DNA of 64,000 bases from Alphaproteobacteria bacterium. GTDB lineage: Bacteria; Pseudomonadota; Alphaproteobacteria; Rhizobiales; JAJFHC01. The stretch lies in contig JAJFHD010000011.1 of NCBI GenBank assembly GCA_021775805.1, positions 118,606-182,605 on the forward strand, read 5' to 3'. The translations under genes were made by a program, and so were the position numbers. Position 1 is the stretch's first letter. Every line of letters starts with the position of its first letter. Below are positions 6,243 through 38,826 of this stretch, one piece after another. The notes under the pieces were generated by a model. It was not told the DNA's origin. It worked only from the letters and a program-made list of their open reading frames with translations, and searched no databases.

Positions 6243-8930
6243 GTGGGCACATCTGTCGGCATCGATGTTGGGGGCACGTTCACGGATTTTCTGTTCGTGT
6301 CCGACGATGGCGTGCCGCGTATCCACAAGACGTTGTCGACGCCGCACGATCCCTCGATTGCAGTGATAACGGGGCTCTCGGAACTGGCCGCGGCCATGGA
6401 CCCGCCGGTGTCCCTGAAGGATCTGGTGGCCGGTATCGAAACCATCGTGCACGGGACGACCGTGACCACCAATGCGACACTGACGCGGCATGGGGCAAAG
6501 ACCGGCCTGATCACGACCGAAGGCGTGCGTGACGCGCTTGAAATGCGGCGCGGCATTCGCGAGGAACAGTACAACAACCGTTACACCAACGTGGAACCTC
6601 TCGTGCCGCGGTATTTGCGGGTGGGCTTGAGAGGCAGGCTCGATCGCAACGGACGGGAAATATCGGCGCTCAACCTGGACGCGCTTGATGATGCCATCGC
6701 CCTGTTTCAGGAAAACGACATTGAGGCCGTGGCAATCTGCTTCATGAACGCCTATGCCAATCCCGATCACGAGAAGACGGTGGCGCAACGGGTGCGCCAG
6801 TCCATGCCCGATGCCTATCTGAGCGTCTCTTCCCAGTTACTGCCGTCGATCAGGTTCTATGAACGCGTCAGCACCACTGTTTTGAACGCCTATATCGGTC
6901 CGATCCTCGATCGTTATCTGTCGAGCCTGGAAAACCGGCTCGAGCAGGAAGGGTTCGCGGGCAAGCTTCTTATCATGCAGTCCAATGGCGGGGTCACGGA
7001 ACCCCGGACTGCCAGGGAAAGAGCTGCCTCAACGCTTTTGTCCGGGCCGGCTGCAGGACCCAGAGCCAGCCTTCACTATGCCGGCGCGCTTGGCCAGACG
7101 AAATGCATTGTCGTCGACATGGGCGGGACAAGCTTCGAGGCATCCCTCGTGGTCGATCGTCCGCTGATGGCGTCGACCGGAGAGATCGACCGCTTTCGTC
7201 TTGCACTACCGATGCTTGACATAAACACCATCGGGGCCGGTGGCGGTTCGATCGGCTGGATCGATAACGGCGGGCTCTTGCAGATGGGGCCGCAAAGTGC
7301 CGGTGCCGCACCTGGCCCCGCCTGTTACGGAAAAGGGGGCAAGAAGCCGACCACCACCGACGCCAACGTCATCCTCGGGTATCTCGACCCGGGCTACTTC
7401 GCCGGGGGAACCATGTCGCTCGATGCGGTGGCCGCGCGCGCAGCGATTGACGAGTATGTGGCCAAGCCGCTGGGCCTCACCGTCGAACAGGCGGCGGCGG
7501 GCATGTACAAGGTCGCCTGCACGAACATGGCGGAAGGTGTGCGGGAGGTGACCGTCAAACGGGGACATGATCCCAGGGAGTTTGCCATGGTCGTCGCCGG
7601 TGGCGCCGGTGCGATTCATTCGAGCGAGATCTGCCGGGAGCTTGAAATCCCGATGCAGATTATCCCGCGGGAAGCGTCCATTTTGTGTGCCGCCGGGATG
7701 TTGATGAGCGACCTCGAACACGATCATGTGCATACCTATGTGCGCCGCCTCGATACTCTCGATTTTGAGGATCTGGACAAGATCGTCAAAGGCATTGTTG
7801 AAAGAGCTACACTGAAATTTGCCGCGGACCGAATTGCCGAAGAAAAGCGCTCGTTCCTGTGCACACTCGAGTGCCGGTACCTCAAGCAGTATCACGAGGT
7901 CGGCTTTCTGGTGCCCCTTGAGCAGATTGAAAATGGCGACCGCGAGGCCATTGCCAGTGCATTCCACGAGCAGCACAACAGTCTTTACGGCTACTCCTTG
8001 CGCGAACAGGGGGCGCCGATTGAAGTTGTCAATGTCCGCATTACGGCCATCGGCAAGACCGACAGACCGTCTTTCGCAAGGTCCATGCGTTTTGACGGAA
8101 ATGTAGAACGGGCAAAAAAGGGCGCACGTTCAGTCTACATACCCGAAAGCGGCAGATTCGAAGCTGTGCAGATCTACAATGGCCACGTGCTCGGCCATGG
8201 CGACCTGGTCAAGGGTCCGGCCATAATCGAGCAGGAAACCACGGCAATCTTCGTCAGTCCGACGTACAACTGCGTGTGCGACAGGTTCGGATCGTTTGTG
8301 GTCTTCGACAAGAAGCGACCGGAACTTGCATTGCTGGTCGCGACGGATGAGGAAAACATTGCTGAGGCAACTTCCGGCGACGAAGGTTCGGTCGCGGGAG
8401 AGGATAGGGAAAACGGCTCGGCAGCACCGGACGCGGCATCTGTCACGGATGCGGAAACAGGTATCGCGGAGGAGCCTGCCGGCGTCGGCGCCGAGGAAGA
8501 AGACGAAGACGGAGCGTCGACCGGCAACCAACCCGATAACCTGGAAGCCGATGTGAACCCGGCGGCAACGGAGCCGTCAGGCGACCACACGACTTCGGTG
8601 GAAGAAGTCTCGGAAGAAGTGGCCGATGAGGCGACCGGCGGTGAGACGGGAGCCGGTGGTGACGAGGCCGGCGGCGACACCATCGAACCGGCGAAGAGCG
8701 ACGAGGATACCGGTGCAGACGACGTTAAATCCGGGGCGGACAGCGATGACGAAGGCTCAGAAGACGATGGGCCGGCGGAGGCGGTCGAAGCAGAGGCGGT
8801 TGGTGGCGCGGAAGCGGGTCGCGAAGAACAGGCCGAACCGGACGATGCCGTTGAAGACAGCACCGCTGGGGACGGCAACGACGGGGATGACCGTCCGAAC
8901 ATGACGTCAGAACCGGAGGTGGTGTCGTGA
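6243..8930 (+). CDS. hyuA: Hydantoinase/oxoprolinase family protein (HyuA-like) with long acidic tail
   Basis: An 895-residue protein with GTG start and GAGGAG a few bases upstream. Residues 1 to about 699 form the usual HyuA/acetone-carboxylase-beta-type ATPase: an N-terminal GIDVGGTFTDF phosphate loop, HGTTVTTNA near residue 75, and VDMGGTSFEASLV and NTIGAGGGSIGWID in the middle. Family members use ATP to activate a carbonyl for lactam hydrolysis or carboxylation. From residue 700 (base 8340) a tail of about 196 residues has 65 Asp/Glu, about five Lys/Arg, and no aromatic residue or Cys. Typical relatives end where this tail begins. Its role is unknown. The gene overlaps hyuB by four bases (GTGA). 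Confidence 0.9.
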   Translation: MGTSVGIDVGGTFTDFLFVSDDGVPRIHKTLSTPHDPSIAVITGLSELAAAMDPPVSLKDLVAGIETIVHGTTVTTNATLTRHGAKTGLITTEGVRDALEMRRGIREEQYNNRYTNVEPLVPRYLRVGLRGRLDRNGREISALNLDALDDAIALFQENDIEAVAICFMNAYANPDHEKTVAQRVRQSMPDAYLSVSSQLLPSIRFYERVSTTVLNAYIGPILDRYLSSLENRLEQEGFAGKLLIMQSNGGVTEPRTARERAASTLLSGPAAGPRASLHYAGALGQTKCIVVDMGGTSFEASLVVDRPLMASTGEIDRFRLALPMLDINTIGAGGGSIGWIDNGGLLQMGPQSAGAAPGPACYGKGGKKPTTTDANVILGYLDPGYFAGGTMSLDAVAARAAIDEYVAKPLGLTVEQAAAGMYKVACTNMAEGVREVTVKRGHDPREFAMVVAGGAGAIHSSEICRELEIPMQIIPREASILCAAGMLMSDLEHDHVHTYVRRLDTLDFEDLDKIVKGIVERATLKFAADRIAEEKRSFLCTLECRYLKQYHEVGFLVPLEQIENGDREAIASAFHEQHNSLYGYSLREQGAPIEVVNVRITAIGKTDRPSFARSMRFDGNVERAKKGARSVYIPESGRFEAVQIYNGHVLGHGDLVKGPAIIEQETTAIFVSPTYNCVCDRFGSFVVFDKKRPELALLVATDEENIAEATSGDEGSVAGEDRENGSAAPDAASVTDAETGIAEEPAGVGAEEEDEDGASTGNQPDNLEADVNPAATEPSGDHTTSVEEVSEEVADEATGGETGAGGDEAGGDTIEPAKSDEDTGADDVKSGADSDDEGSEDDGPAEAVEAEAVGGAEAGREEQAEPDDAVEDSTAGDGNDGDDRPNMTSEPEVVS

Positions 8931-10636
8931 GCACAGTCGATCCCATCCTGCTGTCGGTCTATTCCAGAACCTTCAAGTCGATTACCGACGAGATGAGCAA
9001 TTCGGTTGCCCGCACGACGCGCTCGCCGATCCTGTGCGAGGCCAAGGACTTCGTGACCGGTCTTTACGACGAAGCGGGGAATATGCTGGAGCAGACGGAG
9101 AACCTGCCGATCCTTGCGTTCTCTCTGGCACCGGTTTGCAAGTACATCATCGAGTTTTTCGGTGACGATATTCATCCCGGCGACGTGATCTTTCACAACG
9201 ATGTCTTCAGCTTCGGCAACCAGAACAACGATGTTGCCGTCTACAAGCCGATCTTTCTCGAAGACGACCTGATCGGCTGGGCCGCGGTCAAGGGCCATCA
9301 GGCCGATATCGGCGGGGCGGTCCAGGGGGGCTACAATCCCAAGGCCACGGAAGTTTGGCAGGAAGCCCTTCGGATTCCACCGGTCAAGGTCTACGACAAG
9401 GGTGTGTTCCGCAAAGATGTCTGGGGCATGATCTTTGCCAATATCCGCCTGGAAATCGTCGAGCACGACATGCGCGCCCAGATGGGTGCCGCCACCGTCG
9501 GCGAACGCCGCGTTCAGGCCCTCGTGGGCAAATACGGTGCCGAGCACTACCGGGCCCACAAGCAGGCCCTGTTCGAGTCGTCGCAGAAAATGATGGAAGC
9601 CGAAATCGAAAAGATTCCGAACGGCACCTATTCAGGACAGGGCAAGGTCTATTTCGATGGCCATCACGAAGGCACCATCTTCACGATCCGGGTAAAGATT
9701 ACCGTCGAGGACAAGCGTATCCGGTTTGACTATTCCAACACCGACGCCCAGACCGACGGTTTCGTCAACGGCACTTACACCTCCAGTGCGTCGGCCACGG
9801 TGCTTACCCTGCTGCAACTGGTCGACCCGAACATTCCGCACAACCAGGGAATGCTCGAGCCCCTCGAGATCATCATTCCCGAGGGCACTATCCTCAATGC
9901 GAGTTATCCCAAAGCCACAACCTTCGGCAATCATCTGTGCCCACCGAACGCCGATGCGATCACACGCGCCCTGGCGCCGGCAATTCCCGATCGTGTCACG
10001 GCAGGATGGAACAACCTGCTGTGCTCCCTGACCACCGGCGTCGATCCGGAAAAGAACGAAACCTATGTCGATATCGGATTCATGGGCCTCAAGGGCGGGT
10101 CGGGCGCCATGAAGGGGACCGACGGATACGACCACATCGGCATGATCGACGCCTCCGGCGGTGTGCTGGACCAGGATTACGAAATGTTCGAAGTCATGAC
10201 GCCGCATATTCTATTGAAACACGAATATATCGAGGATTCCGGCGGCGCCGGACAGTGGCGCGGCGGACTCGGCGTCGAAACCGGCTTTGTCATCGGGTCC
10301 CCGGACACGCAACTCGTGACGTTCGGCGATGGCGATTTCGAAGGCGCTTTCGGTCTATTGGGGGGGCGCGGCAGTATTCTGAACAGCATTGTCCTTGAAT
10401 ACCCGGACGGAACAAGAAGGGTCCCAAAGAACAAGGACCTGATCACCGGCGTTCCCAAAGGCACATACTATCATCAAGTTGCCGGTGGCGGCGGCGGTTA
10501 CGGCGACCCGAAGAAACGGGACCGGGACAAACTCAGGGCCGAGGTGCGCAACGGTGTGATTTCCGAAAAGGCTGCGCGGGAGATATACAACCTTGCGGAT
10601 GCCGACGTGTCCGGCGAACCTGCGGCCGAGTCGTGA
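8927..10636 (+). CDS. hyuB: Hydantoinase B/oxoprolinase family protein (HyuB-like)
   Basis: A 569-residue protein of the N-methylhydantoinase B family, the usual partner of HyuA. The N-terminal region has TDEMSNSVARTTRSPILCEAKDF, then HPGDVIFHNDVF and GHQADIGG, which carry conserved acidic and His residues of the family, and a Gly-rich GGAGQWRGGLG near residue 440. It starts at a GTG overlapping the hyuA stop, with GGAGGT ahead. A and B probably form a complex for ATP-dependent hydrolysis or carboxylation of a keto or lactam substrate. I see no gamma subunit as in acetone carboxylase, which favours a two-subunit enzyme. The substrate is unknown. Confidence 0.9.
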   Translation: MSTVDPILLSVYSRTFKSITDEMSNSVARTTRSPILCEAKDFVTGLYDEAGNMLEQTENLPILAFSLAPVCKYIIEFFGDDIHPGDVIFHNDVFSFGNQNNDVAVYKPIFLEDDLIGWAAVKGHQADIGGAVQGGYNPKATEVWQEALRIPPVKVYDKGVFRKDVWGMIFANIRLEIVEHDMRAQMGAATVGERRVQALVGKYGAEHYRAHKQALFESSQKMMEAEIEKIPNGTYSGQGKVYFDGHHEGTIFTIRVKITVEDKRIRFDYSNTDAQTDGFVNGTYTSSASATVLTLLQLVDPNIPHNQGMLEPLEIIIPEGTILNASYPKATTFGNHLCPPNADAITRALAPAIPDRVTAGWNNLLCSLTTGVDPEKNETYVDIGFMGLKGGSGAMKGTDGYDHIGMIDASGGVLDQDYEMFEVMTPHILLKHEYIEDSGGAGQWRGGLGVETGFVIGSPDTQLVTFGDGDFEGAFGLLGGRGSILNSIVLEYPDGTRRVPKNKDLITGVPKGTYYHQVAGGGGGYGDPKKRDRDKLRAEVRNGVISEKAAREIYNLADADVSGEPAAES

Positions 10637-10646
10637 TGAGGGTCTG

Positions 10647-11780
10647 ATGGACTTCAGTCTGAGTGCGGAGCAGAATCAGATACGGGAAACATTTGCACGT
10701 TTTTGCGATGAAGACATTGTTCCGCAGGCTGAGGCCCTAGACGAGGCCCATGCGTTTCCCAAAGACCTGTTCGAGAAACTCGGCACGTTGGGGTTTTTCG
10801 CCATGCGTTATCCCGAGGACCTCGGCGGTATCGACAGCGACCTGGTGACCCTTTGCATTGCGCTTGAAGAAATCGCCCGGGGATCGATGTCGCTGGCCGG
10901 CTGCGTGACGATGCAGTCGCTGATGGGCACCAAGTTTTTGCACATGCTCGGCAATGCGGACGTTCGCGAGCGGCTTCTTCTGCCGGCGCTCAAGGGCCAT
11001 AAGATCGGCGGCATCTGCATGACCGAGCCGAATGCCGGCAGCGATCTGGGCGGGATTGCAACCAGGGCAACTAGAGTGGATGGCGGCTACAGGCTCAACG
11101 GTCAGAAGATGTGGGTGACGTCGGCGCCTGTGGCGGACTTCTTTACGGTCTTTGCTAAAGCCGGTGATGAGGACGGGCTTACGATTTTTCTGGTCGAGAA
11201 AGACTTCGATGGCCTGAAGGTCGGTCGCTCCATTGAAAAGATGGGTGTGCGGGCATTGCCGACGTCGGAAGTGGCCTTCGAGGACTGCTGCGTGCCTGAC
11301 AGTCACGTGTTGAGCCGGGAAGAGGGCGACGGTCAGGCCCACTTGCGCCAGCTTCTGGCCGAAATCCGGATCGTGACCGGTGCCCTTGCCGTGGGCGGCG
11401 GGCGGGCGGCTCTCGACGAGGCCGTGCGGTACGCCGGCGAGCGGGCGCAGTTCGGCAAGCCGATCAACCGGTTTCAGGCGATCCAGATGAAACTGGCGGA
11501 AATGGCGACCGATCTCGAAGCCGCGCGCCGGCTGGTGCACTACGCGGCCTGGCTCAAGGACGAAGGCAAGCCCCATCTCAAGGAAGCGTCGATGGCAAAG
11601 CTGTTTGCCTCGGAAGCCGCTGCCGATATCTGCGACAAGGCCGCCCGTGTTTTTGCGTCCTATGGATTTGCCATGGAGTATCCGGTTCAACGTTTTCTGC
11701 GCGACATCCGTTTTACCCTGATTGGCGGCGGCACAAGCGAGATCTTGAAACTCGTCATCGCCAAGGAGGTGTCGTCATGA
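10647..11780 (+). CDS. Acyl-CoA dehydrogenase
   Basis: A 377-residue flavoprotein of the acyl-CoA dehydrogenase family: N-terminal helical domain, CMTEPNAGSDLGG and QKMWVTSA in the beta domain, then the ERAQFGKPI helix and a C-terminal GGGTSEI. The position that holds catalytic Glu in medium-chain enzymes (YEGT) is Gly here (IGGGTSEI, about residue 360). Isovaleryl-type enzymes are also Gly-like there and take the base from another helix, so a branched substrate is possible. The start at 10647 gives the usual N terminus. It overlaps the B12-binding protein gene by four bases. Confidence 0.92.
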   Translation: MDFSLSAEQNQIRETFARFCDEDIVPQAEALDEAHAFPKDLFEKLGTLGFFAMRYPEDLGGIDSDLVTLCIALEEIARGSMSLAGCVTMQSLMGTKFLHMLGNADVRERLLLPALKGHKIGGICMTEPNAGSDLGGIATRATRVDGGYRLNGQKMWVTSAPVADFFTVFAKAGDEDGLTIFLVEKDFDGLKVGRSIEKMGVRALPTSEVAFEDCCVPDSHVLSREEGDGQAHLRQLLAEIRIVTGALAVGGGRAALDEAVRYAGERAQFGKPINRFQAIQMKLAEMATDLEAARRLVHYAAWLKDEGKPHLKEASMAKLFASEAAADICDKAARVFASYGFAMEYPVQRFLRDIRFTLIGGGTSEILKLVIAKEVSS

Positions 11781-33067: not shown

Positions 33068-34615
33068 CTACTGGCACTGATTGTTGGCCTTCAACGTCCG
33101 GTACTGATAACCGCAGACCCGTCTGAGTTTGAGGTCGTTTTGTCTCCAGCACTTGCCGCAACCCGTGCCGACGGTCTTGCTCGACTGCTTCTTGCGGGGC
33201 TTCTGTCTTTTTTTGAGTTTGGTTTTCGCCCGGCTCTTTTGCTTTGTTGTTGGACTGGCCGTCTCAGGCTCGGTGATCCGGCCGGCGTGCGCCAACACGG
33301 CGTTGCGGCTACCGGGGCCCCATTTCCCGTCGATCCGGGCGCGGTATAGCCCCAGCGCCTTGAGGCGCTGCTGGACTGCCTTGAGGAAATCCGGATCCGT
33401 CCGGGTATCCGTCCGGGTCAATGCCTCTATGGCCGGTTCATGGTTCAAAGCGACGGCATCGAGGATATGGATCGATGCCTCCGTCCAGCTTCGGCCCACA
33501 CCCAGGCCACGGTAATACAAGGTGCCAAGACGGTACTTCGCCGCCGCGTGGCCTCGATTGGCGGCCTCGCGGTACCAGTGTGCCGCCTTCAGATAGCTCT
33601 GGACGACGTCGTCGCCGATCTCGTAACGGCGGCCCAATGCCGTCATCTGCGATGCCGTCTCCGGCGCCGAACCCTCGGTGAGGGCGGCGTGCTGCGTTGA
33701 TTTTGCCGGCTGGTCTACCGGTTCCTCCAGCGCGAAGCTTTCATTGGTGGCCGCCCGCTGTGTCGATTGCGACAACAGGTCTTCAGAGGTGGTCGGCGCC
33801 AGGGCCGCCAATTCCAACTTCTTGGGCTTTTCTGACTTGGCGACCAGCGTTTCCTTACCATTGGTGGCTTCCGGCACGAAATAGAAATCGCCGCGCAATG
33901 AAGACTCTTCCCAAGGTGTCTGGGCACCACCGGTCACTTCTTCCACGACGACCCGGACCCGCTTGAAAACATGTTCGACTGCAAGCCCAGGCAGCAGAAT
34001 CGTCTCGGCCAAAGCTGTCGTAAACGGCGAGTTGCCGCCCCGACCGTCAAACGCGACCTGACCCGGTGCTGCGGAAAACGCGATCAAGGATCCGGAAACC
34101 GCCGTGATCCGGGCGAGGCCACGCCGATCCGAACGGGTTACGCCCTTGAGCGGGTTGTTGCGGCAGGCATCGAGGATGACAATGTTCAGCCCGTTGCCTG
34201 CAGTTTCCATCTGACGCAATACATCGGAGGCACTGATTGCTTCAAGGTCGAGATCGGCTTCGTCGTCAATCTGTGCCGCCAGAGGGATGAGGTAGTTGAC
34301 GCCCTGTGCCTGAATGCCATGACCGGCAAAGTAGAACAGGCCGACCGCATCCTTGCCGGCCCGTCTCAGGGCCCTGCCGAATTTCTTGACGGCGCGGCCC
34401 ATCTCGCGGCGGTCGACGTCGATCGCGGCGACAACTTCAAAACCGACCTCATTCAATGTCGAGGCAATCAAAAGGGCATCATTTTTGGGATTGCTCAAAC
34501 GCGAGATCGACTCGTAGTCCGAGTTGCCGATAACCAGAGCGACGCGCTTCGCGGCATGGGCAATGCTGACCGAAGCAATCAAAATCGCCAGGCTGAGAAT
34601 GATCCTCAAGTTCAC
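33068..34615 (-). CDS. Secreted caspase-family protein with SEL1-like repeat and peptidoglycan-binding-like motif
   Basis: A protein of 515 residues if the GTG at 34615 is used; this start places a signal peptide at the N terminus (hydrophobic residues 4-20, cleavage near AHA-AKR). The caspase-like domain has VALVIGNSDY, catalytic His99 in FYFAGHG and Cys151 in LDACRNNP, so activity is likely. A SEL1/TPR-like repeat follows (AAHWYREAANRGHAAA), then a peptidoglycan-binding-like motif (LKALGLYRARIDGKWGPGS) and a Lys-rich, Cys-containing C terminus. An upstream ATG at 34762 also opens the frame but would overlap the divergent gene. Such metacaspase-like proteins have unknown roles. Confidence 0.85.
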   Translation of the reverse strand: MNLRIILSLAILIASVSIAHAAKRVALVIGNSDYESISRLSNPKNDALLIASTLNEVGFEVVAAIDVDRREMGRAVKKFGRALRRAGKDAVGLFYFAGHGIQAQGVNYLIPLAAQIDDEADLDLEAISASDVLRQMETAGNGLNIVILDACRNNPLKGVTRSDRRGLARITAVSGSLIAFSAAPGQVAFDGRGGNSPFTTALAETILLPGLAVEHVFKRVRVVVEEVTGGAQTPWEESSLRGDFYFVPEATNGKETLVAKSEKPKKLELAALAPTTSEDLLSQSTQRAATNESFALEEPVDQPAKSTQHAALTEGSAPETASQMTALGRRYEIGDDVVQSYLKAAHWYREAANRGHAAAKYRLGTLYYRGLGVGRSWTEASIHILDAVALNHEPAIEALTRTDTRTDPDFLKAVQQRLKALGLYRARIDGKWGPGSRNAVLAHAGRITEPETASPTTKQKSRAKTKLKKRQKPRKKQSSKTVGTGCGKCWRQNDLKLRRVCGYQYRTLKANNQCQ

Positions 34616-34704
34616 CGTCTTACGCCAAATTTGCCGAGAGCTTTGCGTGCAATTTGTAATCACGTTCACATAATGGCACATAATCGATAACAACCAAAAT
34701 TCGC

Positions 34705-35718
34705 ATGTCGTTTCAACTCGGCATCCTGCAGGCAAATCTGACACACATGTTCGATCGAGCAATCTTCTGGCTGGTAAACGTTTCTGCTTATCTCCGGCAC
34801 TTTCGCAACATCATGCTGTTCAGGCGCGCGGTCGGCTATTTCCCCAACGTCGCTGTGCCCAGGCGGTACAATGAAAAAATGTTGTGGCGGAAGATCTTTG
34901 ATCATAATCCGCTGTTCGTGACGTTCTCCGACAAACTGGCTACCAAAAAACTCTGGGCTGACCGGCGCCCGGATTTAGCTACGGCGGCAGTTCTTTGGAC
35001 CGGCTGTGACGCCGCGCACATTCCGGGTGATCTGTTCAAGCGGCCCGTGGTGATCAAGGCAAATCACGGCTCCGGTATGAACACAGCGATCGACGATTTG
35101 CATGACCCCCAATCGCTGCCGGTGGATCGCATCAACAGTTGGCTGGACTGGGACTTTGGGAAACATCAGTTTGAGTGGGCGTACGAACAGGTCGACAGGC
35201 GACTTTTCTTGGAAGAGCTCATTGCTTGTTCGAAGGAATTTCCGGTCATTGATATTTCGATTCACGCCTGCGACGGTCATGGCGTGTTCGTGGAGGTGAT
35301 CTGTGCAAACAAGACAGATGACCAACAAAAGGCCTATTTCAAAACGGACGGGACACGTTGGAGGGAAATTGAGAGAAGCAGTATCGATGGCGATGACGAT
35401 TCAAGTTTACCCGAGACGTTTTCGATACCCGCAAACTATCGGAAGGCTCTGGATCACGTACGCGATCTGAGTTCCGGTATAGACTACGCGCGGTTCGATT
35501 TTCTGTCGGTTGCGGACCGTCTATTCGGCGGGGAAATCACTGTCTATCCGAATTCCGGCCTGACACCGCACGCTCCGTTTATCACGTACAACAAATATCT
35601 CACCGAACACTGGGATTTGTTAAAGTCATGGTTTCTGACCCGCCGGCAGCCTTGGATGATTCAAGTCTATGCCAGCGCTTTGCGCCGGCAGTTGGCTCGG
35701 GAAACCGGACGACATTGA
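34705..35718 (+). CDS. TupA-like ATP-grasp family protein
   Basis: A 337-residue protein resembling the TupA-like ATP-grasp family. The N-terminal PRRYNEKMLWRKIFDHNPLF and FSDKLATKKLW are its signature, then VVIKANHGSGMN provides the nucleotide-binding strand, and ARFDFLSV with ITVYPNSGLTP resembles the metal-binding end. ATP-grasp enzymes join a carboxylate to an amine or thiol by an acyl-phosphate. It heads a block with a BshA-like glycosyltransferase, an unrecognised protein and an LmbE deacetylase, so it may supply the amino-acid ligation step of a small-molecule pathway. TupA members elsewhere act in wall or capsule polymers. Confidence 0.8.
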   Translation: MSFQLGILQANLTHMFDRAIFWLVNVSAYLRHFRNIMLFRRAVGYFPNVAVPRRYNEKMLWRKIFDHNPLFVTFSDKLATKKLWADRRPDLATAAVLWTGCDAAHIPGDLFKRPVVIKANHGSGMNTAIDDLHDPQSLPVDRINSWLDWDFGKHQFEWAYEQVDRRLFLEELIACSKEFPVIDISIHACDGHGVFVEVICANKTDDQQKAYFKTDGTRWREIERSSIDGDDDSSLPETFSIPANYRKALDHVRDLSSGIDYARFDFLSVADRLFGGEITVYPNSGLTPHAPFITYNKYLTEHWDLLKSWFLTRRQPWMIQVYASALRRQLARETGRH

Positions 35719-35753
35719 ACAGGGTGTCAAACGTGGCCGACAGTGATCCATCC

Positions 35754-36917
35754 ATGAGACGCCGACTGGTCATTGGCCAGGTTTGTCACGGCAGCCTGGG
35801 GGGCAGTTCGCGGGTGGCCTGCCGGCTTGCCAACGCCCTTGCCCGGCGGCGCCACCGTGTTCACGTTTTTTCTCGCGAGATCCTGCCCTGGGCAATGGGC
35901 CCGGATGTCCATCAACATGCCTGCCCGAACATGACGCCCTGTGACCCCGGTTCTCTTTGCCTCGACTGGCCAGAAGGCGACCGGACTGCCTTTGCGCACA
36001 TGCTGACAGTATGGCTGACGCGCGAGCGCTTCGACGTTCTGCATTTTCATTACGTTCACCCGTTTGCCGGAATCGTCCGCCAGGTTGCGGAAAGCCTGGG
36101 CGATCGTGCGCCGGTTCTGGTCGGGACACTCCATGGCACCGATCTTACCCAATGCCTTGACAACACCGCTGAGCTTGCGTTGCTGAGCCGCGATCTTGCC
36201 GCAATCGACGAACTGACGACCGTGTCGGAACACATGCAGACGCTGTCCATGCGACTGATGCGGCAGAATCGGGCTGTCCGCGTGATGCCGAATTTCATTG
36301 AGGACACGTGGCCGCAACCGGTTCGACGATCCACTCAGCTAGCGCCAACCCGTCAGAAACCAGGATTTCTTCATGTCTCGAATTTCCGGGCGGTCAAGGA
36401 TGTCGAGTTGCTGGCAAGGCTGTTTCTGCAGATATATCAGCAGACAGATGCCGAACTCTGGCTTGTGGGGGACGGCCCGGGCTTGCCGGCGTTAAGGCGG
36501 TCGTTCGACCGATCACCCGCCAAGGCGGCCGTTCGTTATCACGGTGCGATTGCGGACCCGGCACCGTATTTCGAACAGGCCACGGCTCTGTTGTCGACCA
36601 GCCGCCAGGAGAGTTTCGGTCTGGCGGTACTTGAAGCGATGGCAAGCGGGACCGTCGCGGTGGCAACCGCAGTAGGCGGTGTACCGGAACTGGTCGAGGA
36701 CGATGTCACGGGCATTCTCTTTCATCCAATCGACCTGGATGTGACGGTTGCACGGATATTATCTCTGCTGGACACGCCGGCCGAACTGGAAGCCATGCGC
36801 GCCCGTGCCTTCCAGCGGACAGAGCGGTTGCGGGAGGCGCAGGTGATTGGCCTCTACGAGGATCTTTACCTGCGAACCGCCCGAAGCCCGGCCGACCAAC
36901 TGGGCGCTATAGCCTGA
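35754..36917 (+). CDS. bshA: Glycosyltransferase family 4, BshA-like
   Basis: A 387-residue GT-B glycosyltransferase whose motifs follow BshA, which links GlcNAc to L-malate in bacillithiol synthesis: HGSLGGSSRVACRLA near the start, LHFHYVHPFAGIV, GTLHGTDLT, MPNFIED, LHVSNFRAVKDVELLARLF and the GT4 ESFGLAVLEAM. The SNFR-x-VK block matches the Bacillus enzyme as I recall it, as does the length. Candidate starts upstream (GTG 35724, ATG 35628) overlap or abut the ATP-grasp gene; 35754 gives the family N terminus. A general GT4 role is the alternative. Confidence 0.75.
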   Translation: MRRRLVIGQVCHGSLGGSSRVACRLANALARRRHRVHVFSREILPWAMGPDVHQHACPNMTPCDPGSLCLDWPEGDRTAFAHMLTVWLTRERFDVLHFHYVHPFAGIVRQVAESLGDRAPVLVGTLHGTDLTQCLDNTAELALLSRDLAAIDELTTVSEHMQTLSMRLMRQNRAVRVMPNFIEDTWPQPVRRSTQLAPTRQKPGFLHVSNFRAVKDVELLARLFLQIYQQTDAELWLVGDGPGLPALRRSFDRSPAKAAVRYHGAIADPAPYFEQATALLSTSRQESFGLAVLEAMASGTVAVATAVGGVPELVEDDVTGILFHPIDLDVTVARILSLLDTPAELEAMRARAFQRTERLREAQVIGLYEDLYLRTARSPADQLGAIA

Positions 36918-38050
36918 TGCGCGCCCTGATTGACCTGCAGGCGTCCCGCGCGGGCAGGCTTTTGCTTGAAGACTCGATGATCTTTGACGATCCGTCAGCG
37001 CTTCTGGCATGCCTTCGAGCACCGCGTCGCGATACCGGCACTCAAGGCGGTCCCAACAACCGGCCTGTGTATGTCCACCAGCAGGCCTATCTCGACTACA
37101 GGTCGTCGGTGGTCGCAAAAATGTTGGCTTTGCGTGGTCTTCATGACCGGTCGATGGATGTACAGGCTGACTTCATCTGGATCGATACCGACCGGGCGGG
37201 ATCGGACAAACTCGGTCTGCGCCTCTATCTGCCTGGACGCCATGGCAAAGTCCCGATACGGTTTGCGCCAAGCGGTTGCGACCGGCTTGAGTCCCGGTTT
37301 ATTGCGCTGGATCCTGCTGTCGTGCGTCGCGCAATGAACCGGATGAAGCAGATGGTCCACCATTTGCCGGGCGCACGAAAGGAGTTACTTGCACGGTTTG
37401 ACATATTGCGTCCGGTGCTTGAAACCGAAGGTTCCCTGACGAAACTCAGTCGTGCCCTCTCGGATTTTCTGTTTGATGAGGTCCTTTCGTTCAAACCCCG
37501 GCCGGTGCTGGTCTCCAGTCTGATCGACGCCGGCGTTTTGAATGACGTTCTGGAGAAAATCCTGAACCGGCAGCGGGCGTTCGTCGATGCCGTCAATATA
37601 CGCATTCGGCACCTGCAATCGTCTGATATCGCACCTCAGTTAAAACCGCTTCCTGACGATTACCTGCCCCTTTTCATGCCCTGCCCGGCCGATGGCAGAC
37701 GTCTGCGCCTGCGTCTGGAAATCGACGGAGCGACAAAACTTGCCTGCGCCACGGACAGCGCCGGGGAACAGCACAGCTTCGAGTTGGGGCGAACCGATCT
37801 TTCACTGCAAACCTTGAGCGGGCAGGTTCAATGGAGTCCCGACATTTCGTTGCCCATGCTTGTCAATTGTCATTACAGTGGCATGGTGGCTGGAAAAAGC
37901 TCCGCACTCTATATGATGGTTTTCGGCCCGGTGATGCAAAGGGTATTGGAACTGGATCCGATACCCGTTTTTGTGCCGTCCAGTTGGGATGTCTTTCCGG
38001 GTCAGTTTGACAGTCTGTTGTGCGCGTATCTGTCCGGCAATCGGATTTAG
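36917..38050 (+). CDS. Hypothetical protein, possibly BshC-like
   Basis: A 377-residue soluble protein I do not firmly recognise. It starts within the stop of the glycosyltransferase gene (TGATG). Faint traits of BshC, the enzyme adding Cys in bacillithiol synthesis, are visible: PVYVHQQAYLDYRSSVVAKM in the place of the BshC V-x-x-x-QQ segment, DFIWIDTDRAGSDK in the place of its F-W-V-A-x-E-D-H, and a late LPMLVNCHYSGMVAGKSSAL. It is about 160 residues shorter than BshC and lacks an evident coiled-coil C terminus. Its fixed place between BshA-like and BshB-like genes is the main support. Confidence 0.6.
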   Translation: MRALIDLQASRAGRLLLEDSMIFDDPSALLACLRAPRRDTGTQGGPNNRPVYVHQQAYLDYRSSVVAKMLALRGLHDRSMDVQADFIWIDTDRAGSDKLGLRLYLPGRHGKVPIRFAPSGCDRLESRFIALDPAVVRRAMNRMKQMVHHLPGARKELLARFDILRPVLETEGSLTKLSRALSDFLFDEVLSFKPRPVLVSSLIDAGVLNDVLEKILNRQRAFVDAVNIRIRHLQSSDIAPQLKPLPDDYLPLFMPCPADGRRLRLRLEIDGATKLACATDSAGEQHSFELGRTDLSLQTLSGQVQWSPDISLPMLVNCHYSGMVAGKSSALYMMVFGPVMQRVLELDPIPVFVPSSWDVFPGQFDSLLCAYLSGNRI

Positions 38051-38085
38051 TCGGGCAACCAACGGAAAGGGACGGCTGGTTTCAG

Positions 38086-38826
38086 ATGACTATTGACCTT
38101 CTGGCATTTTCTCCTCACCCCGACGATGCGGAAATCGGTTGCGGCGGCCTGCTCCTTCTGGCCGCCCGGCAAGGCCTGAGCACCGCAATCGTCGATCTGA
38201 GCGAGGGGGAAAAGGCAACGCTGGGGACACCGGCCGTCCGCCGTCGGGAGAAGATGGCGGCCGGAGAAATGCTCGGTCTGACGGCACGGCGTGGGCTCGA
38301 ACTGCCCGACACCCAAATCGGACTCGATCCAAATCACGAAATCGACGTCGTCGCCTGCCTGCGGGAATTGCGGCCACGGATGGTTCTTGCGCCGAATTTT
38401 GAAGATCGTCATCCCGATCATGAGGCAGCGGCGCGCCTGATCAAACGGGCGGCATTCTTTTCCGGCGTTGCAAGTGTTGGTACCGGCGCGCCGCACCGGA
38501 TTGAACGAATGCTCCACTACTGCGTTCACAGTCCCTTCACGCCCAGCCTCGTGTTTGACGTGTCCAGTGTCTGGCCTGAATACACGAAGGCCGTGGAAGC
38601 CTACGAGAGCCAGTTCTGTCAACTTGGCGAGAAGGACGACGAAGCCACGCCTCTGAGCAATGGAGATTTCCTGAAAACCCTTGAGGCGCGGGGCAGGCAT
38701 TATGGCGCCATGATCAACACAGAGTTCGGCGAGCCCTACTATTCTTCGTCGCCGCTATCGCTCGACTCGCCTGCCGCTTTGTTTCCATCAGAAAAATCAA
38801 GAACAGCGTACGGATCGTTTTCCTGA
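38086..38826 (+). CDS. bshB1: LmbE family deacetylase, BshB1-like
   Basis: A 246-residue LmbE-type zinc deacetylase. The metal motif PHPDDAEIG is at residues 11-19 and the third ligand region is EDRHPDHEAAARL. The match to bacillithiol deacetylase BshB1, which removes acetate from GlcNAc-malate, extends to LELPDTQIGL and AVEAYESQF. The start at 38086 is chosen because residues before it are not family-like. It closes a block with the BshA-like gene. MshB- or MCA-like enzymes of other thiol pathways are relatives. Confidence 0.8.
   Translation: MTIDLLAFSPHPDDAEIGCGGLLLLAARQGLSTAIVDLSEGEKATLGTPAVRRREKMAAGEMLGLTARRGLELPDTQIGLDPNHEIDVVACLRELRPRMVLAPNFEDRHPDHEAAARLIKRAAFFSGVASVGTGAPHRIERMLHYCVHSPFTPSLVFDVSSVWPEYTKAVEAYESQFCQLGEKDDEATPLSNGDFLKTLEARGRHYGAMINTEFGEPYYSSSPLSLDSPAALFPSEKSRTAYGSFS

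Follow-up and report, generated by a model that had tools for sequence, protein, structure and literature searches.

In a 64,000-nucleotide stretch of Alphaproteobacteria bacterium (assembly GCA_021775805.1, contig JAJFHD010000011.1; "the window" below denotes this whole stretch), four genes on the same strand form a tight block at positions 34705–38826 (Table 1). They encode a TupA-like ATP-grasp protein, a BshA-like glycosyltransferase, a third protein that we call X, and a BshB1-type deacetylase. Genes 1 and 2 are separated by 35 bases, as are genes 3 and 4, and genes 2 and 3 have one base in common, namely that at which the stop codon TGA (36915–36917) meets the ATG of gene 3 (36917–36919). 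A check of the open reading frames (ORFs) bore out all four; the mechanically called ORFs of genes 2 and 4 begin at 35628 and 38020, with the ATG codons at 35754 and 38086.

Table 1. Genes of the block, with positions in the window
Gene	Assignment	Position	Strand	Length and basis
1	TupA-like ATP-grasp protein, candidate further ligase of the pathway	34705..35718	+	337 aa, Pfam ATPgrasp_TupA
2	BshA-like GT4 glycosyltransferase, putative UDP-GlcNAc:malate step	35754..36917	+	387 aa, NCBIfam BshA
3 (X)	Candidate compact cysteine ligase	36917..38050	+	377 aa, predicted BshC fold
4	BshB1-type deacetylase	38086..38826	+	246 aa, NCBIfam BshB1

Gene 4 scored 238.9 bits against the NCBIfam BshB1 model, above its equivalog cut-off of 182.5 bits, and was the sole match at E <= 0.001 in its own genome; its best sequence matches in the Protein Data Bank (PDB) were 1uan, 2ixd, and 6p2t. 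For gene 2, 42 NCBIfam families were listed as matching, of which BshA was the best at 205 bits, followed by a family at 75.7 bits, with the mycothiol enzyme MshA at 44.8 bits; the best PDB sequence matches were the BshA entries 2jjm, 3mbo, and 5d00. In a tree with seven other GT4 enzymes of the same genome, furthermore, 14 BshA rows (12 from near X and two crystal structures) stood apart from those enzymes with support of 84/95, a grouping limited by long branches. Gene 2 also carries the motif ESFG at residues 286–289, which, according to the available part of one report, contacts N-acetylglucosamine (GlcNAc) in Staphylococcus aureus BshA (PMC10361700). Gene 2 is therefore likely a BshA-type enzyme that would transfer GlcNAc from UDP-GlcNAc to L-malate, and gene 4 likely a BshB1-type enzyme that would deacetylate GlcNAc-malate. 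Both types had been named in the original prediction, which would have been weakened by gene 2 falling into a general GT4 clade; the family scores agree with the two assignments, and the tree keeps gene 2 outside the other seven GT4 enzymes of the genome.

Protein X had no match in NCBIfam and a single one in Pfam, which at 12.7 bits is below the cut-off; by sequence, nothing in the PDB matched it at an E value under 0.22. Some 5.8 billion proteins were searched for relatives, with at least 52 homologues found, the window's own included, and a further search that started from an alignment of 42 rows yielded at least 61 matches, 18 of them new; in both searches, scoring was restricted to roughly 8000 candidates with the most words in common. 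Where named by their source, the homologues are called "hypothetical protein", and no protein named BshC, sought as an intermediate sequence, was among the 61 profile-search matches. Indeed, the BshC Pfam models were listed for none of the 42 aligned members, and the 12 Pfam families that did appear match one or two members each. The alignment has 13 invariant columns, including Q56, D60, D90, D92, R93, S200, and S328, and a CxC[GDN] motif occurs in 20 of its 42 members. One member, P0050, has both CECG and CRCG; these motifs resemble a zinc ribbon, which was apparently lost from the X of the window. A search of plasmids for X gave no match. An in-frame TAG in the X gene of genome G182 was considered as a disruption and rejected, as it is the terminal stop of an intact 367-residue ORF, and a partial match of 23 bits in G233 was not counted as X.

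The structure model of X is confident and BshC-like: BshC was the clear best fold match, covering nearly the whole model, and the core fold of BshC appears to be present in the prediction. The second fold match was class I lysyl-tRNA synthetase (LysRS), with lower coverage. X thus falls outside BshC in the sense of the curated models, but by its predicted fold and its genomic place it would work like BshC.

Surveys of genomes are consistent with this idea. With the BshC model TIGR03998, no canonical BshC was found in the genome of the window, nor was BshC found in the 12 X-bearing genome entries, which represent 11 distinct genomes (one contig is common to G264 and G389). Among 385 genomes of the window's class, BshC was above the cut-off in none, and X was found in four, one of them as a partial 23-bit match. 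BshB1 exceeded its cut-off in three of the 385, which are exactly those with full-length X, and BshB1-like matches below the cut-off (133.9 and 115.9 bits) were seen in two genomes without X. With the window's own genome set aside, X and BshB1 coincide in two and two of 384 genomes, for which the chance is 1.4e-5 if the genomes are independent. In the phylum of another carrier, G390, BshC was above the cut-off in none of 301 genomes, and X is rare there, being present in G390 itself alone. BshC matches under 20 bits, seen in two of the 385 class genomes and in one of the 301 (19.3 bits), were not taken as BshC. X likely replaces BshC in its carriers.

Twelve loci with X were compared: the window, at least ten (L010–L019) obtained by scanning genome contigs with one pattern, and L042 in the single-contig genome G182. 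BshA lies near X in all 12 and BshB in 11. Because distant genomes also have gene 3 together with BshA, and in most cases BshB as well, the block is more than a chance assembly. BshB1 was above its cut-off in ten of the 12 (the window, L010–L014, L017–L019, and G182), and L016 has two weak BshB copies (76.8 and 62.8 bits). In a comparison of BshA scores that took in 11 loci and left out L042, BshA passed its cut-off in L015–L019 (291.5–321.7 bits). The arrangement varies in that L018 has its BshA and BshB genes on the opposite strand, and a gene for 1015 residues lies between X and BshA in L019.

A further partner is an ATP-grasp-type gene. Gene 1 passes the gathering score of Pfam ATPgrasp_TupA (PF14305) at 43.5 versus 25 bits, and its structure model, built with four sequences, is poor (predicted local distance difference test score of 52). 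A TupA-like gene is directly upstream of BshA in the window and in L010, L011, and L012, the copies of these last three being 45–53% identical to gene 1. In L013, L014, and L042, a different gene lies on the downstream side of BshB, with convergent orientation in L042; its three copies are 42–59% identical and have a WEANPYP motif in common. Six of the seven PDB matches to this downstream gene at E <= 0.1 (best E 0.00081) are what we take to be ATP-grasp proteins, namely carbamoyl-phosphate synthase, RimK-type, and LysX-type. In NCBIfam, the L013 gene had a weak RimK match and those of L014 and L042 had none, and in Pfam a CPSase match below the cut-off was the only one. The downstream gene is, therefore, weakly identified as a RimK/LysX-like ATP-grasp type. 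By these searches, each of the seven proteobacterial loci carries one of the two ATP-grasp-type genes and none carries both; in the other five loci, where the genes were scanned in part, neither type was found.

The same seven proteobacterial genomes are those in which glutathione synthetase was above its cut-off; in the other five X-bearing genomes, it was absent or below the cut-off (199.9 bits in G392 and 62.2 bits in G391). A bacillithiol-type product in the former would therefore be an additional thiol. The genome of the window has two glutathione synthetase genes, on C52 and C27, one of these contigs being 3.6 kb long; the contamination of the assembly is rated at 7.86%. In two X-bearing genomes of Anaerolineae, furthermore, the bacillithiol disulfide reductase YpdA was clearly the best family for proteins scoring 313 and 308 bits against a cut-off of 339.9 bits.

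Taken together, we consider it likely, with a probability of roughly 0.7, that the cluster makes a bacillithiol-type thiol in which X adds cysteine in the place of BshC. This reading draws on computed evidence, namely the gene order, the family matches, the BshC-like model, the recurrence of the trio, and the lack of BshC in the X-bearing genomes searched, from which we infer every reaction and substrate in it. In this scheme, the BshA relative would couple GlcNAc with malate, deacetylation would fall to the BshB1 relative, and X would add cysteine as a compact, unrecognized counterpart of BshC without the coiled-coil domain; in the proteobacterial loci, the ATP-grasp-type protein may then form another amide bond, either on the product or on an intermediate, so that an extended thiol would exist alongside glutathione. 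The last is the least certain step, albeit the simplest reading of the ATP-grasp gene. A broader proposal, to which we give somewhat less than even odds, is that X is the founding member of a second, compact bacillithiol synthase family, with which the pathway extends to lineages where searches for BshC come up empty (Proteobacteria, Actinomycetota, Chloroflexota, and possibly an archaeon), and that two different ATP-grasp ligases were recruited in turn in glutathione-containing Proteobacteria to turn bacillithiol into a new amide-extended, low-molecular-weight thiol.

Several results weigh against a bacillithiol-type thiol made with X. X is not recognized by the curated models of BshC (NCBIfam TIGR03998 and Pfam PF10079), and a comparison with 22 BshC sequences of Bacilli gave an hhalign probability of 0.2%, with no profile similarity under six option sets. 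Its superposition on BshC by Foldseek is loose (root-mean-square deviation of 9.4 and template modeling score of 0.65 by query), and X lacks a coiled coil of the BshC type, the longest helix of the model having at most 17 residues. The score of gene 2 is below the BshA equivalog cut-off (205 versus 273.7 bits), and in the window and L010–L014 BshA scores are all below the cut-off (198.1–263.8 bits). No separate BshB was found in L015 by tblastn. YpdA was above its cut-off in none of the 12 X-bearing genomes, the best score in the window's own genome being 43.5 bits. Also, while the distance matrices of BshA and X (r 0.81, n = 12) and of BshB and X (r 0.64, n = 11) are correlated, and none of 5000 permutations reached either value, this co-variation partly reflects the common ancestry of the organisms.

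Alternatively, X might be a class I synthetase-like ligase that links glucosamine-malate to a non-cysteine amino acid, so that the product is no thiol. The LysRS match, the possibility that CxC[GDN] forms a zinc ribbon, the lack of sequence similarity to BshC, and the glutathione synthetase already present in the proteobacterial carriers would all suit such a ligase, but BshC is the clear best match over nearly the whole model and two carriers of X have a YpdA-type protein; we hence regard this alternative as unlikely. We find it quite improbable that cysteine is added by the ATP-grasp protein, leaving X some other task, for example a later ligation. Such a division would fit the seven proteobacterial loci, all of which have an adjacent ATP-grasp-type gene, but X has the predicted BshC fold and neither ATP-grasp type was found in five other loci with BshA and X. 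Because those five of the 12 loci show neither type, a general role of ATP-grasp as the cysteine ligase is unsupported. Of the two candidates for the cysteine-adding step in the original prediction, the ATP-grasp enzyme is thus disfavored, and the divergent 377-residue protein gains support from its modeled fold and from the lack of BshC in X-bearing genomes. That the block serves capsule or polysaccharide synthesis and resembles a bacillithiol cluster only superficially seems barely tenable, since the TupA name (from teichuronopeptide synthesis) and the sub-cut-off score of gene 2 are set against BshB1 and the BshA of L015–L019 above their cut-offs, the grouping of gene 2 with BshA structures, and ten scanned flanking genes of the window that are catabolic, regulatory, or caspase-like and include no capsule or polysaccharide gene, the flanks in relatives having been scanned in part.

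The proposed synthesis of a bacillithiol-type thiol with X resembles the BshA-BshB-BshC pathway of Bacillus subtilis in its BshA-type and BshB1-type enzymes, its protein with a predicted BshC fold, and the YpdA-type protein of two carriers. It differs in that X belongs to another sequence family, has 377 residues instead of 539 (162 fewer), and lacks the coiled coil, and in that the proteobacterial loci add an ATP-grasp-type gene in genomes that also have glutathione synthetase. An alpha-helical coiled-coil dimerization domain of BshC is described in the available part of a 2015 review, which also states that the activity of BshC had never been shown in vitro by then and that the mechanism of ligation was unknown (PMC4360819). 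As in the N-methyl-bacillithiol pathway of Chlorobaculum tepidum (NmbA), where a further enzyme modifies what the bacillithiol core makes (PMC6282198 and PMC12719100, as far as their available text goes), a modifier may act here, but the candidate is of ATP-grasp type instead of a methyltransferase. The mycothiol ligase MshC is alike in its class I synthetase-like fold and in ligating cysteine to an amino sugar; unlike class I LysRS, X sits with BshA and BshB genes. The TupA-like ATP-grasp family has a role in teichuronopeptide synthesis. Gene 1 belongs to it by score but adjoins bacillithiol-type instead of teichuronopeptide genes.

Bacillithiol genes have precedents in Proteobacteria: the accessible portion of a 2018 survey predicts bacillithiol for some Proteobacteria by way of canonical bshA-C; the same portion names lineages without any predicted thiol (PMC6282198). 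A thiol from the block would come in addition to glutathione in the seven proteobacterial genomes, and it would be less of a surprise than the original prediction supposed. The block is best read as encoding a bacillithiol-type pathway whose third protein, unrecognized so far, has a predicted BshC fold. In searches of the literature on bacillithiol, BshC, and related terms, from which most subscription journals are outside, no X-like protein was seen in titles or the openings of abstracts, and no paper was found for bacillithiol, BshC, and Alphaproteobacteria combined. Other synthetase-like ligases with ATP-grasp neighbors have been described in a paper whose available text does not contain the words YllA and LmbE (PMC2922099). 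If X acts as proposed, Proteobacteria would have a second cysteine thiol beside glutathione, and surveys requiring BshC would miss X-bearing organisms. A natural protein with a predicted BshC fold, about 377 residues, and no dimerization domain, encoded beside its partner genes, would also be a simple system for the mechanism of ligation.

The contig of L016 is labeled Woesearchaeota and has at 7176–10836 a BshA above the cut-off (307 bits), X, and the two weak BshB-like genes. Its BshA groups with the two Bacillus structures in the tree (support 97/95), and the neighboring genes, for phosphoribosyl pyrophosphate synthetase and cyclase-like proteins, are no guide to whether the contig has an archaeal origin. 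For archaea, 39 InterPro matches each of BshA and BshC, most of them in Asgard, are given in the available part of one report (PMC7278568), and a 2025 survey, in its available part, lists no archaeon with a complete bacillithiol pathway (PMC12719100).

Next to the block in the window, a divergent gene (33068–34762) encodes a caspase domain (Peptidase C14) with a Sel1 repeat. Giant genes are found near X in loci of Chloroflexota and Actinomycetota (L015:393–4292, L018:1909–5922, and L019:4985–8881, with a part in L017:63–1115). The giant protein of L015 combines FHA, indoleamine 2,3-dioxygenase, a sulfite reductase flavoprotein-like reductase, and cytochrome b5, and those of L018 and L019 have FHA and reductase parts by NCBIfam. 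Proteins of about 1015 residues are also encoded beside X and BshA (L015:4483–7530, L017:1112–4168, and L019:10272–13319). That of L015 has PIG-L, NEW3, and cyclic-nucleotide-binding domains, and its best NCBIfam match, below the cut-off, is mycothiol conjugate amidase (Mca); judging from these domains, the 1015-residue protein is possibly a thiol-conjugate amidase.
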